Assembly (NCBI GenBank): GCA_902546375.1
Contig: CACCJO010000008.1
Location: 1 to 32,643 of the forward strand
Reading direction: 5' to 3'
Length of the DNA stretch: 32,643 nucleotides
Origin: an uncultured Pelagibacteraceae bacterium
Lineage (GTDB): Bacteria > Pseudomonadota > Alphaproteobacteria > Pelagibacterales > Pelagibacteraceae
A program made the translations under genes and the position numbers. How positions within the stretch are numbered: the first letter of the stretch is position 1; each line of letters begins with the position of its first letter. This document shows, in pieces, positions 12,976 through 21,388 of this stretch. The notes beneath the pieces were generated by a model that was given only the letters and a program-made list of their open reading frames with translations, searched no databases and was not told where the DNA came from.

Positions 12976-13815
12976 ATGATTTCAATCGTAATACCAACTT
13001 ATAATAATTTAGATTACTTAAAACTTTGTTTAAAGAGTTTAAAAAAAAATTCTTCCTTTAAACATGAAATAATAATACACATCAATGAAGGTTCAGATGG
13101 TACATTAAATTTTGTCAAAACTAACAATTATAAATATACAATCTCAGGTGAAAATATTGGTTTATGTTCTTCAATAAATAAAGCTGCAAAATTAGTTTCT
13201 AATCGATATATCCTTTATAGTCATGATGATATGTATTTTTGTCCTAATTGGGATAAAGTTTTATTAGATGAAGTTAAAAGTTTAAATCATGACGAATTCT
13301 ATCTATCTGGCACTATGATTGAGCCTAACTCTGGTCATATAGTTTGTGATTTTGGAATTGATCTAGATAGATTTAAAGAAGATGAGCTATTATCTAAATA
13401 TAATGATATTAATTTTTATGATCATCAAGGCTCTCATTTTGCTCCACATTTAGTTTCAAAAAAAATGTGGGATAAAGTGGGTGGTTTTAGTGAGGAATTT
13501 AACCCTGGTATAGGTTCTGATCCAGATTTTAATATGAAATTATGGAAGGAAGGGGTGAGAATATTCAAGGGTCTAAATGATTTCAAAGTTTATCATTTTG
13601 GTTCATTAACAACTAGGAAAAAAAAAAATTTTATTCAAAATAGGGGGGATAAGACATTTTTAAGAAAATGGGGAATTACAACGAAGTTTTTTAAAAAACA
13701 TTATTTAAAATCAAAAACTAAATATAATGGACCATTGAAAGAACCTAGTATAACAATTGAATATATATTTGGTCTTTTGTCTTGTAAAATACAATCTATA
13801 TTTTTACTTTATTAA
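12976..13815 (+). CDS. glycosyltransferase family 2
   Basis: GT-A-fold glycosyltransferase of about 279 residues. The N-terminal ISIVIPTYNNLDYLKLCL is the standard GT2 nucleotide-binding strand. ENIGLCSSINKAAKL and SHDDMYFCPNWDKVLL carry the aspartate pair expected to bind the metal-UDP-sugar. GGFSEEFNPGIGSDPDFNMK is the usual acceptor/catalytic region. The ATG at 12976 is preferred because it directly precedes the conserved strand and leaves one base after the previous stop; an in-frame ATG at 12940 would add 12 unconserved residues and overlap the previous gene. The C-terminal end overlaps the converging recombinase gene by 20 bases. Confidence 0.85.
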   Translation: MISIVIPTYNNLDYLKLCLKSLKKNSSFKHEIIIHINEGSDGTLNFVKTNNYKYTISGENIGLCSSINKAAKLVSNRYILYSHDDMYFCPNWDKVLLDEVKSLNHDEFYLSGTMIEPNSGHIVCDFGIDLDRFKEDELLSKYNDINFYDHQGSHFAPHLVSKKMWDKVGGFSEEFNPGIGSDPDFNMKLWKEGVRIFKGLNDFKVYHFGSLTTRKKKNFIQNRGDKTFLRKWGITTKFFKKHYLKSKTKYNGPLKEPSITIEYIFGLLSCKIQSIFLLY

Positions 13816-14749
13816 GTGCATTATTTTTAAATATATTAGCTTCTTTAATATATCTTCTAACCATTTGTGTTGTTTTATGACCCGTCATAGCCATTATACT
13901 TCGCTCATCTGCACCAGACTCAGCAGCTACTGTTGCGAAACCTGACCTTAAACTATGGCCAGCAAAATTTTTGTTTTCTATACCTGCTAAATTTAAATAT
14001 TCTTTTATCAATAAAACTACAGATTGATCGGTTAACCTTTTATCCGTCAATAAGGAACCTTTAGTAAATCTTCTAAAAATAGGTCCAGACTTAATTTGAG
14101 AAACCTCTAACCATCTTTTTAAATTCATAACGGGGCAGTAAATTTCATTTGTGAAATAGGGTAGGCCCTTTATCATTCCTTCACCAAATTGATCAGTTTT
14201 AGATTTTTTAATATAGATTTTAAGGCCCTCCGGTACAAATTCTAAATCTTCATGGTCAATAGAAATGAGCTCTGTTCTCCTAAATCCACCTCCAAAGCCA
14301 ATAAGTATTATTGATTTGTCTCTTAGTTTTTTAATTTCATTAACTTTTTGTTCATCTATTACATTAATAATCAATTTTAAATGATTGATTAATAATGGTT
14401 TTTTACCTTTCTGAATACTACCTTTGACCCTTCTTATACCCATTAAATTTTCTACTATGATTGGATGTTTTGTGTCTAGATAATGCCCTTTCAACTTGTG
14501 AACCATACTTATTGAAACCAATCTTCTTCTTAAGGTGCTTATTTTTGAATTTTTAGAAAGGTGAGTGAGGTACAAAGAAACTATCTTAGGTTCAGTTGGC
14601 AACGAATTTAAGGAATGCTTAGCACAAAAAGCTCCAAAGTCTTTGAAATCAGACTTATAAGCTCTCAATGTGTTATTTGCCTTAGAGCTCTTTAAATTGT
14701 TTAACGTTGCCTCATGTAGCGATTTTAGGTCTGTGGTTAACTCACTCAT
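13796..14749 (-). CDS. tyrosine recombinase / site-specific integrase
   Basis: Complete phage-integrase-family recombinase, 317 residues. The N-terminal SAM-like core-binding domain is about residues 15-105 (NTLRAYKSDFKDF, LSKNSKISTLRRRL). The catalytic domain carries the full set: R157 (GGGFRRTEL), a beta-hairpin lysine near 184, H265xxR268 (HSLR), H291 (TGHKT) and nucleophile Y300. So it should be active. The start codon lies two bases from a 37-bp inverted repeat resembling a recombinase core site, and its likely promoter overlaps that repeat. XerC/D-like in size and without an N-terminal arm-binding domain, so directionality may not depend on arm sites. It converges on the GT2 gene. Confidence 0.9.
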   Translation of the reverse strand: MSELTTDLKSLHEATLNNLKSSKANNTLRAYKSDFKDFGAFCAKHSLNSLPTEPKIVSLYLTHLSKNSKISTLRRRLVSISMVHKLKGHYLDTKHPIIVENLMGIRRVKGSIQKGKKPLLINHLKLIINVIDEQKVNEIKKLRDKSIILIGFGGGFRRTELISIDHEDLEFVPEGLKIYIKKSKTDQFGEGMIKGLPYFTNEIYCPVMNLKRWLEVSQIKSGPIFRRFTKGSLLTDKRLTDQSVVLLIKEYLNLAGIENKNFAGHSLRSGFATVAAESGADERSIMAMTGHKTTQMVRRYIKEANIFKNNALNKVKI

Positions 14750-14788: not shown

Positions 14789-14811
14789 TATCAAGTGATT
14801 TATAATGTCAA
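14783..14811 (-). promoter_or_regulatory. putative recombinase promoter overlapping the inverted repeat
   Basis: On the minus strand a perfect -35 TTGACA (14811-14806) is followed after 17 bases by TATTAC (14788-14783), or after 15 bases by TATATT (14790-14785). The -10 lies in the right arm of the inverted repeat, so occupation of the site should block transcription of the recombinase. The -35 shares a base with a plus-strand TATAAT at 14801-14806 that may serve the small membrane-protein gene. Confidence 0.5.
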
Positions 14812-14830
14812 TAGTTTAAATTATAAATTT

Positions 14831-15007
14831 ATGGGTTCAATTGATGGTGAAATTCCAGCTGTATGGTTTTTGATAAGCTCAATTGGTTTTATTATTTTGA
14901 GTTACATTCAATATAGAAATACTGGTAAAAGTATTAACACAATTTTTTTAAGCATAATGGCCATTTTATTTTTATTTAGTTATTTTATATTGCTTTTTAA
15001 AACCTGA
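14831..15007 (+). CDS. small membrane protein, unknown function
   Basis: A 58-residue frame beginning MGSIDGEIPAVWF with two predicted transmembrane helices, about residues 9-25 (VWFLISSIGFIILSYI) and 37-55 (IFLSIMAILFLFSYFILLF), joined by a short polar loop. The ATG at 14831 is preferred to a GTG at 14795 because the first helix follows it directly. A TATAAT at 14801-14806 could drive it. No family was recognised. Lying next to a recombinase, a two-helix protein could be a toxin, a holin-like protein or simply an uncharacterised SAR11 protein; the sequence does not decide. Confidence 0.5.
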   Translation: MGSIDGEIPAVWFLISSIGFIILSYIQYRNTGKSINTIFLSIMAILFLFSYFILLFKT

Positions 15008-15096
15008 TTTATCCCCACTATTCACAAGGAAATGAGAAAAATAAAAGAATCGCCTAAAAAGTGATACATTTTAAAATCAGTATTTGTTAAATTAAT

Positions 15097-15102
15097 TATG
15101 AA
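15097..15102 (+). promoter_or_regulatory. possible -10 element of the structured RNA
   Basis: TATGAA at 15097-15102 would place a start at about 15107-15109, exactly where the base composition jumps from about 18% G+C (15061-15100) to about 52% G+C. No convincing -35 was seen. Confidence 0.3.
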
Positions 15103-15106
15103 TTAA

Positions 15107-15278
15107 GGGGCAACTCTTAACTGGCCAATTGGAGAAAAGCCGAGAGGTACAATTCCAGGGGGCAGAAAGCTTCACAAAGCATCGCTGAACATGTGGAGCG
15201 GGAGGCATGGCGGTAGCGCATCAACGACGTGCCAAAACAACTGTTCTTTGCACCCTTAAAAGTGCAAGGAAACAGGGG
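15107..15278 (+). ncRNA. unidentified G+C-rich structured RNA or leader upstream of ogt
   Basis: By hand count 90 of 172 bases are G or C, far above its surroundings. Four consecutive hairpins can be drawn: 15121-15158 (CTGG-CC-AATTG with CAATT-CCAG); 15169-15199 (GCTTCACA with TGTGGAGC, 8 bp with one GU); 15204-15233 (GGCATG with CGTGCC); and 15241-15275 (13 bp with one bulged A, loop CCTTAAAA). CGCT in loop 2 (15183-15186) can pair with AGCG in loop 3 (15215-15218). The fourth hairpin ends within the AGGGG that precedes the ogt ATG. It does not match tRNA, tmRNA, SRP, RNase P or the common riboswitches as I know them. It could be a cis-acting leader of ogt, a free small RNA, or mobile-element DNA structure. 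Confidence 0.6.
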
Positions 15279-15287
15279 TTTTCAATA

Positions 15288-15563
15288 ATGATACTCAAAG
15301 GAACTAAATTTCAATTAAAAGTTTGGAAATATCTTAAAACCATCCCTAAAGGTGAGGTAAAAACCTACAAACAAGTAGCTATTAGCATAAAAAGCCCTAA
15401 ATCAGCTCGTGCTGTCGCTAACGCTTGCGCTAAAAACCCATATGCTCCAAAAATACCCTGTCATAGAGTGATTAGATCAGATGGAGCTCTTGGAGGATAC
15501 TCTGGAAGAGGTGGAATAAAGCAAAAGCTTAAATTACTTAGATCTGAAAAAGCAGCCATTTAG
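15288..15563 (+). CDS. ogt: methylated-DNA-[protein]-cysteine S-methyltransferase, short form
   Basis: DNA repair protein that removes alkyl groups from O6-alkylguanine by irreversible transfer to its own cysteine. The active site is IPCHRVI with C58. TKFQLKVWKYLKTIPKGEV is the entry to the domain, YKQVAISI and ARAVANACAKNP the helix-turn-helix with the arginine finger, and GGYSGRGGIKQKLKLL the C-terminal helix. At 91 residues it holds only the C-terminal domain, like the ATL/Ogt-minimal forms. The ATG at 15288 is preferred; in-frame codons upstream to 15207 lie in the structured RNA and are not conserved. AGGGG at 15274-15278 may serve as ribosome site. Base composition is richer in G+C than most neighbours. 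Confidence 0.9.
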   Translation: MILKGTKFQLKVWKYLKTIPKGEVKTYKQVAISIKSPKSARAVANACAKNPYAPKIPCHRVIRSDGALGGYSGRGGIKQKLKLLRSEKAAI

Positions 15564-16022
15564 CCTTATTTTAGGGATTTTTTATGTTAAAAAACCCAAT
15601 AAAATCAACATTTTTTATCTTTTTTCTATATTTTCTCTTAAAAATCATAATTCACCCTTTAGTTGTACCATGGATAAGCTTACGCTTAAAATAGACCCCT
15701 ATTTGGCCGTTTAAATGCTATATTCAATTAGTGCATCGCTCTAATATCTAACTATATCAACGTTTTTAGAACACCTCATTTTTTTAAGATTTCCCTTTTT
15801 CTTATGTACAAAAAGCCCCTATTTTTAAAGATAATCTAATATTTTTAAGATTTATCTGAAAATTTAAGCACTGAAACTGAAGTCAACTATGTTTTACAAT
15901 TATAATATCCATTTATATTAAATTTTTGTTAAATTTTAGATTTTATAAAAAATAATAATTACAATAGTTTACAATGTAAAATTAATGTAATACTTTATAT
16001 ATTAGTAAATAAATAATACCTA
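15564..16022. other. 459-bp gene-poor spacer between converging genes
   Basis: Lies between the 3' ends of ogt and the EamA transporter, so neither gene needs a promoter here. It contains a hairpin GGG-A-TTTTTT/AAAAAACCC at 15574-15597 that could slow polymerase after ogt but lacks a following T run, two CCCCTATTT words (near 15697 and 15819), and the palindrome TTTACA-A-TGTAAA at 15968-15980. A possible 36-residue hydrophobic frame, 15584-15694 (+), starts MLKNPIKSTFF; I cannot support it as a gene. No RNA gene or pseudogene was recognised. Confidence 0.7.
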
Positions 16023-21310: not shown

Positions 21311-21328
21311 ATCATCATACAAACTCGG

Positions 21329-21384
21329 TAGGCATTTGAACTATATTGTGCGCCTAGCATGAAGCTAAAGCACTAAAAAAGGAG
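21329..21384 (+). promoter_or_regulatory. SAM-V riboswitch (second of tandem)
   Basis: Stem 1 pairs TAGGC (21329-21333) with GCCTA (21352-21356). Stem 2 pairs GTGC (21348-21351) with GCAC (21370-21373). ATTTG (21334-21338) and AGCTAAAG (21363-21370) repeat the SAM-binding pocket words. The Shine-Dalgarno GGAG (21381-21384) follows at once, so ligand binding should hide it. Published work on Pelagibacter describes exactly this arrangement: SAM-II acting on transcription, followed by SAM-V acting on translation. Confidence 0.85.
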
Positions 21385-21388
21385 TAAA

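Follow-up and report, generated by a model that had tools for sequence, protein, structure and literature searches.

A copy of the small RNA IMES-2 in front of ogt in a SAR11 genome: anatomy of the locus, conserved fold and changing neighbours

The locus and the identity of its structured RNA

The DNA analysed here, referred to as the window, is a stretch of 32,643 nucleotides from an uncultured Pelagibacteraceae bacterium (assembly GCA_902546375.1, contig CACCJO010000008.1). The features of interest, which include a tyrosine recombinase gene, an island of high G+C content preceded by several short conserved elements, and an ogt gene, are listed in Table 1. An initial annotation of this DNA described a structured island of about 52% G+C over 172 bases (15107-15278), and this description holds, as the island has a G+C content of 52.3%, in comparison to 27.9% for the whole window, and is the highest among all 172-base windows, the next non-overlapping one having 45.9%. 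The preceding flank is A+T-rich, as had been stated; however, the G+C content of the 40 bases in front of 15107 is 12.5% and not about 18%. The folding energy of the island (-56.6 kcal/mol) is below that of all 756 windows in a tiling at every 86 bases of both strands. None of 200 dinucleotide shuffles folds as well as its plus strand (z -2.71), and for the minus strand no unusual folding is seen in comparison to shuffles (z 0.20).

Table 1. Positions of the features of the window that are discussed in this work
Feature	Position	Strand	Remarks
Tyrosine recombinase (PF00589)	13799-14749		Below XerC/XerD cut-offs
70-aa ORF, GTG start	14795-15007		No Pfam match; between recombinase and IMES-2
Two tandem DnaA-box-like 9-mers, TTATCCCCA CTATTCACA	15009-15026	+	Upstream of RNA gene
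Conserved upstream box, consensus near TCAACTAAAAAGTGATA	15050-15066	+	About -50 to -34 from predicted start
Putative extended -10 element TGTTAAATT, consensus TGnTAnnnT	15085-15093	+	Alignment column pattern
IMES-2 RNA (RF02035), helices P1-P5	15096-15235	+	Full-length model match
P1 hairpin, 7 bp, GNRA-type tetraloop GCAA	15103-15120	+	100% of cells paired; 5/7 pairs with double change
P2/P3 bulged hairpin, GNRA-type tetraloop GAGA	15121-15165	+	11/15 pairs with double change
P4 hairpin, 8 bp	15169-15199	+	8/8 pairs with double change; loop 15182-15186 is 5' kissing side
P5 hairpin, unpaired G.A position	15204-15233	+	5/9 pairs with double change; loop 15215-15219 is 3' kissing side
Intrinsic-terminator-like element	15241-15282	+	Bulged stem 15241-15275, GGG, then four T
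ogt-type methylated-DNA cysteine methyltransferase	15288-15563	+	PF01035, E 3.2e-32; TIGR00589, 100.3 bits
Second conserved low-G+C element	15650-15770		Between ogt and EamA gene; also in genomes without IMES-2
SAM-V riboswitch (RF01826)	21321-21387		81.7 bits; precedes Cys/Met metabolism PLP enzyme gene

The island is a copy of IMES-2, an already catalogued small RNA that is an orphan of SAR11, the most abundant group of ocean bacteria. The match to the IMES-2 model extends over positions 1-141 of 141 with a score of 142.6 bits (E 2.8e-37), the gathering score of this family being 54.7 bits, and the next-best Rfam family within 15000-15400 reaches 15.4 bits, which is under its own cut-off. 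The initial annotation had regarded the RNA as unidentified and belonging to no recognised class, while naming an Rfam scan as a check and coverage by a known family as an outcome that speaks against this view; such a family does cover the island. The four consecutive hairpins that it reported exist, but their borders differ, as 15103 is the start of the first helix and 15096 that of the Rfam match. The reported 8-bp hairpin corresponds to P4 (15169-15176 with 15192-15199), and the 13-bp hairpin with a bulge is the stem of the terminator-like element, this fourth hairpin falling outside the Rfam model, which ends at 15235.

In an alignment of 84 distinct genes with their flanks, conservation begins well upstream of P1, and takes in the 9-mers, the TCAACTAAAAAGTGATA-like box, TGnTAnnnT, P1-P5, the hairpin and the T run, in this order. 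The 9-mers are termed DnaA-box-like due to their resemblance to TTATNCACA, which we take to be the consensus of such boxes. With no mismatch, the pattern of the 9-mer pair was found in 3 of the 10 genomes searched (G000, G209 and G090), always at the IMES-2 gene; the pair is degenerate, and in G004, G110 and G322 the copy at the IMES-2 gene deviates from the pattern by more than 2 mismatches. The core AAGTGAT of the upstream box is conserved in the 84-gene alignment, and all four perfect copies of the box among the 10 genomes are located at IMES-2 genes. The 2-mismatch copies of the box, and likewise the mismatched copies of both upstream patterns, are no commoner in these genomes than those of the reversed pattern, and the window's own copy of the box has 2 mismatches to the search pattern. 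The putative -10 element is not among the six promoter-like sites given by a promoter scan, a number which is near chance (shuffle mean 4.0). The fourth hairpin looks like an intrinsic terminator. A terminator scan did not call the hairpin of the window, where the T run consists of only four bases, and by a crude measure the longest T run is 3-4 in 21 of the 121 members of the family that were collected.

We have also considered whether the core is part of a coding gene. An ORF of 118 aa (15207-15563) enters the RNA, but it represents ogt read upstream into it. Among 20 ogt ORFs, 13 have 89-94 aa, 6 have 116-120 aa and a contig end truncates the remaining one, and since most of them are of the shorter length the upstream extension is not conserved. 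All three plus-strand frames of the 141-base core are interrupted by stop codons in each of the 121 members, and a coding gene, which the initial annotation had allowed for as an insertion, was rejected.

Two other features of this region were observed. The element between ogt and the EamA gene has, in an alignment of 23 loci, a consensus near CACCCTT.AGTTG.AC ... GG.CGTTTAAA...TATATTC...TGCAT, of which the GTTTAAA-TATATTC-TGCAT part is vaguely similar to what we presume to be the consensus of a dif recombination site, with the tyrosine recombinase gene nearby. The recombinase possibly represents a single-recombinase Xer system. In a set of genomes chosen mainly for the absence of IMES-2, the 13 genomes from the genus of the window showed one tyrosine recombinase match each in 6 cases and none in 7, and 4 of 5 genomes from another family had two weak matches.

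Covariation in the helices and in the P4-P5 contact

Five helices with covariation make up the fold of IMES-2, together with a contact between the loops of P4 and P5 that also covaries, and this fold is retained as the neighbouring genes change. The view that the island is a functional structured RNA, for which the initial annotation proposed an alignment of homologous loci, is borne out by compensatory changes in every helix. In a model-fitted alignment of 68 genes from four genera, 29 of the 39 helix pairs change on both sides, and when the 3 of 5 pairs in the contact are added, compensatory change is seen in 32 of 44 pairs. In this alignment 94.3% of the cells are paired, versus 33-41% in the slid controls, none of 500 shuffles is as high on any measure, and the covarying pairs pass through G-U intermediates, as is the case in RNA. 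A MAFFT alignment of 52 genes from the genus of the window gave a similar picture, with 93.2% of the cells pairing (30-38% when slid) and changes on both sides in 22 of 47 pairs, inclusive of the 8 of the contact. Both alignments are thinned sets from the 121 loci, from which close copies were excluded, and a MAFFT alignment including genus g5, in which P1 was shifted by two bases, was left out of these counts. RNAalifold, unaided, predicts the same helices, with both-side changes in 19 of 36 pairs.

The conserved bases of the core are concentrated in this architecture, as nearly all of them belong to helices, tetraloops or the kissing contact. In 52 of 52 genes from the genus of the window, the P1 loop has the sequence GCAA. 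The P3 loop varies to GCAA, GCGA and GAAA in other members of this genus; its GNRA form is kept there and in genes from the genera g282 and g283, but differs in genus g5.

A possible loop-loop contact had been suggested by the initial annotation. This contact is supported by covariation, with the reservation that its percentage of pairing is clear but the double-change counts alone are not. In the 68-gene alignment, 96.8% of the contact cells are paired, versus 3-63% for slid positions, and 3 of the 5 pairs show double change, with no pair having a change confined to one side. None of 500 shuffles reaches the number of double-change cells, but 19 reach the count of double-change pairs and 227 that of further pair types. 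When the contact is slid by +1, equally many double-change cells are seen (13, in 2 pairs), yet only 30% of the cells pair. In the 52-gene MAFFT alignment, an eight-pair contact is 90.3% paired (4-52% slid) and shows double change in 2 pairs and 6 cells, values for which 8 and 2 of 500 shuffles are as high; slid by +1, it shows 3 pairs and 16 cells with double change. We accept the contact because the changes in the two loops match by lineage, where GCGCU/AGCGC is replaced by UCGCU/AGCGA, GCACU/AGUGC or GUACU/AGUAC. The window's own copy forms four of the five core pairs, with a U.C mismatch in place of the remaining one.

Distribution among genomes and genomic sites

Using the wider model R2 with strict filters and 10 candidates scored per genome, IMES-2 was detected in 140 of the 297 genomes that belong to the order, where it is limited to four of eleven genera, all from one family, and in each of the 140 positive genomes there is one match only. 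It is present in 75 of the 150 good genomes of the order and, within the genus of the window, in 100 of 201 genomes and 14 of 29 good ones. Due to its absence from half of the good genomes, IMES-2 is dispensable. In the genome of the window, which is 72% complete, a single match is found, and across 385 genomes of the class there were three positives, viz. this genome and two of genus g5 from the same family. An 18-base pattern from P1/P2 occurs in at least 120 stretches in named contigs; of the 80 examined, 77 are IMES-2 according to R2, all labelled as SAR11 (Pelagibacteraceae, Pelagibacter or Pelagibacterales), and the remaining three contigs (two from Clostridia and one from Bacteroidia) are not IMES-2. 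Model R2 gave no real match in the complete genomes G012, G431 and G521, and model R1 found nothing in the loci L024, L026 and L027. The possibility that divergent copies are hidden in the negative genomes was rejected, as the only R2 matches in 12 negatives of the same genus and 7 genomes of another family were two of 12-13 bits, which look like chance. An origin from viruses, which the initial annotation had mentioned in the form of a phage insertion, also found no support, since a phage collection contained no IMES-2 match and, although the pattern scans of viral contigs gave 3, 7 and 0 hits, IMES-2 was present in 0 of 10 such contigs (best score 10.2 bits).

The 121 loci occupy three unrelated sites: 105 are at the ogt site, 14 behind mnmA and 2 between an SNase gene and a convergent SRAP gene, the last being those of genus g5. 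Among the first 86 loci, 80 have both the recombinase and ogt, two (L057 and L065) are behind mnmA and two are from genus g5; the other two are cut by a contig end, L064 having ogt with the end upstream and L017 the recombinase with the end downstream. Of the further 35, 23 have the recombinase and ogt, and all 12 from the genera g282 and g283 are behind mnmA. In a comparison of 17 genes, related upstream boxes and a downstream hairpin accompany IMES-2 at all three sites. The 9-mer pairs at the mnmA and SNase/SRAP sites are related to those at ogt, the upstream box occurs in varied versions at all three, and the hairpin is formed in 17 of 17 genes folded, its sequence being unrelated between the sites. 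A neighbour of DNA-repair type is seen at two of the sites (ogt and SRAP), with mnmA at the third, and this may be due to chance.

Sites with ogt and the recombinase but without IMES-2 are found in G022, G012 and G024. In G012 (L027) and G024 (L026), another ORF, which is GNAT-like by eye, fills the place before ogt. On a tree of 90 recombinase proteins, the three IMES-2-negative loci need three changes, two of which are forced by starred branches, this being a quick tree with an incomplete careful search in which 42 of 87 inner forks are weak. The need for three changes makes it likely that IMES-2 was lost more than once or that the site was replaced. A constant place in the chromosome was considered and rejected: in G612 the ogt-recombinase site is near the sampled cumulative GC-skew maximum, but the IMES-2 gene of G322 (303 kb) is far away from it.

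Interpretation of the IMES-2 gene and comparison with known systems

Based on the anatomy described above, IMES-2 in the window would be a free-standing gene of about 190 bases with its limits near 15100 and at about 15282; it would be transcribed from a putative promoter of its own and end at the putative terminator just before ogt, and its RNA would act in trans. This, rather than a leader of ogt, is indicated because IMES-2 is found at three unrelated sites and the upstream boxes and the hairpin come along with it. For the mode of action, a compact protein-binding RNA, broadly like 6S or SRP RNA, may be preferred to antisense pairing, since the conserved core bases are structured and no Hfq was found, although this part has less support; the protein partner is a guess, and the RNA could instead act through its own fold. 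Taken jointly, we consider it probable that IMES-2 is a free-standing gene with its own promoter and terminator, whose compact RNA acts in trans by binding protein. DnaA, or some other factor with affinity for the tandem 9-mers, may influence its expression. A more far-reaching proposal, in which IMES-2 is a replication-linked regulator with a promoter read by DnaA and a kissing-loop RNP core, exerting global regulation in those SAR11 lineages in which Hfq and 6S RNA are lacking, is in our view distinctly unlikely.

The reading of the initial annotation, that the RNA is by nature the leader of ogt, corresponds to a cis-regulatory element with a riboswitch-like aptamer and a terminator. Ogt does lie downstream on the same strand in 104 of the 121 loci, its start is 44-62 bases past the end of the model in 79 of the first 81 loci (242 and 245 in the other two), and in the window the T run stops five bases before the ogt start codon, as in an attenuator. 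However, the position before ogt is not constant, as the neighbours differ in 16 of the 121 loci: at the 14 mnmA loci and the two of genus g5, in the latter of which the next gene is convergent, ogt was not detected downstream, and ogt also occurs without IMES-2 in the three genomes noted above. Further, the terminator-like hairpin that stands before ogt is exchanged for unrelated sequence at other sites with the RNA being kept, which indicates that there is no conserved anti-terminator pairing. As the neighbouring gene changes, a riboswitch is disfavoured, and we regard a leader function as very unlikely; ogt is a neighbour that lies outside the RNA gene, and the short distance from the T run makes some read-through into it possible as a local consequence. 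Still less credible, and in our judgement highly improbable, is that IMES-2 forms part of a mobile element or a recombination site served by the adjoining tyrosine recombinase. The recombinase is upstream in 104 of the 105 ogt-site loci, the exception (L064) being cut by the contig end, and the patchy occurrence at three sites is also in keeping with such a role, but no recombinase is present beside IMES-2 in the stretches read at the mnmA and SNase/SRAP sites, the pairs covary with G-U intermediates as in RNA, and no genome has more than a single match.

An antisense sRNA acting in trans on mRNAs by base pairing would agree with the size, the conserved upstream sequence and the terminator-like hairpin with its T run, and targets could be contacted by two unpaired parts, viz. 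the 7-column 5' leader and the segment joining P5 to the terminator. Against this, no unpaired run of 7 columns occurs inside the fold when the kissing core is counted as paired, the organisation is tertiary, and Hfq was found in 0 of 20 genomes of relatives, as against 5 of 14 control genomes, with the genome of the window being only 72% complete. This explanation is rather unlikely. The replacement of 6S RNA in SAR11 by IMES-2 as an RNA polymerase decoy draws on the fact that 6S RNA (RF00013) was found in 0/61 genomes of the genus and, at E up to 1, in 0/20 genomes of two genera (partly overlapping sets), though the controls in Caulobacter, E. coli and others were positive. However, IMES-2 does not have a long hairpin with a central open bubble, which is the hallmark of 6S RNA, and in the complete genomes G012, G431 and G521 neither 6S RNA nor IMES-2 is seen. 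Because IMES-2 is unlike 6S RNA and half of the good genomes do not have it, it is not simply a stand-in for 6S RNA, and there is only a very small chance that the decoy explanation is correct.

IMES-2 was reportedly first described by Weinberg and colleagues in Nature in 2009. Our literature search, with most subscription papers outside its coverage, found no functional study of this RNA. In the available part of a work on 'Cand. P. ubique', tmRNA, SRP RNA, RNase P and riboswitches are listed and 'IMES' is absent (PMC2704228), as it also is from the available part of an analysis of the SAR11 strain HIMB5 (PMC6429828), and in a further work, likewise available in part, IMES-2 is named among matches possibly derived from environmental contamination (PMC6962438). 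To this the present work adds where the gene probably begins and ends, the three sites at which it occurs, the covariation of the contact, its presence as a single copy with a patchy distribution, and the finding that the relatives tested gave no match to Hfq or 6S RNA. The free-standing anatomy together with the covarying contact speak against reading IMES-2 as an ogt leader, and genomes with and without IMES-2 provide natural comparison sets for testing its function.

In comparison with known systems, the RNA of the window has the same helices on the same strand as Rfam IMES-2, but the Rfam structure line contains neither the terminator nor the P4-P5 contact. 6S RNA is also free-standing and of similar size, but differs from IMES-2 in its architecture, and 15000-15400 contains no match to its model at E up to 10. 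The SAM-V riboswitch, of which the window contains a copy, is similarly structured and occurs in marine bacteria, SAR11 among them; however, it precedes a Cys/Met PLP enzyme gene and is classed as cis-regulatory, whereas IMES-2 has no constant downstream gene.
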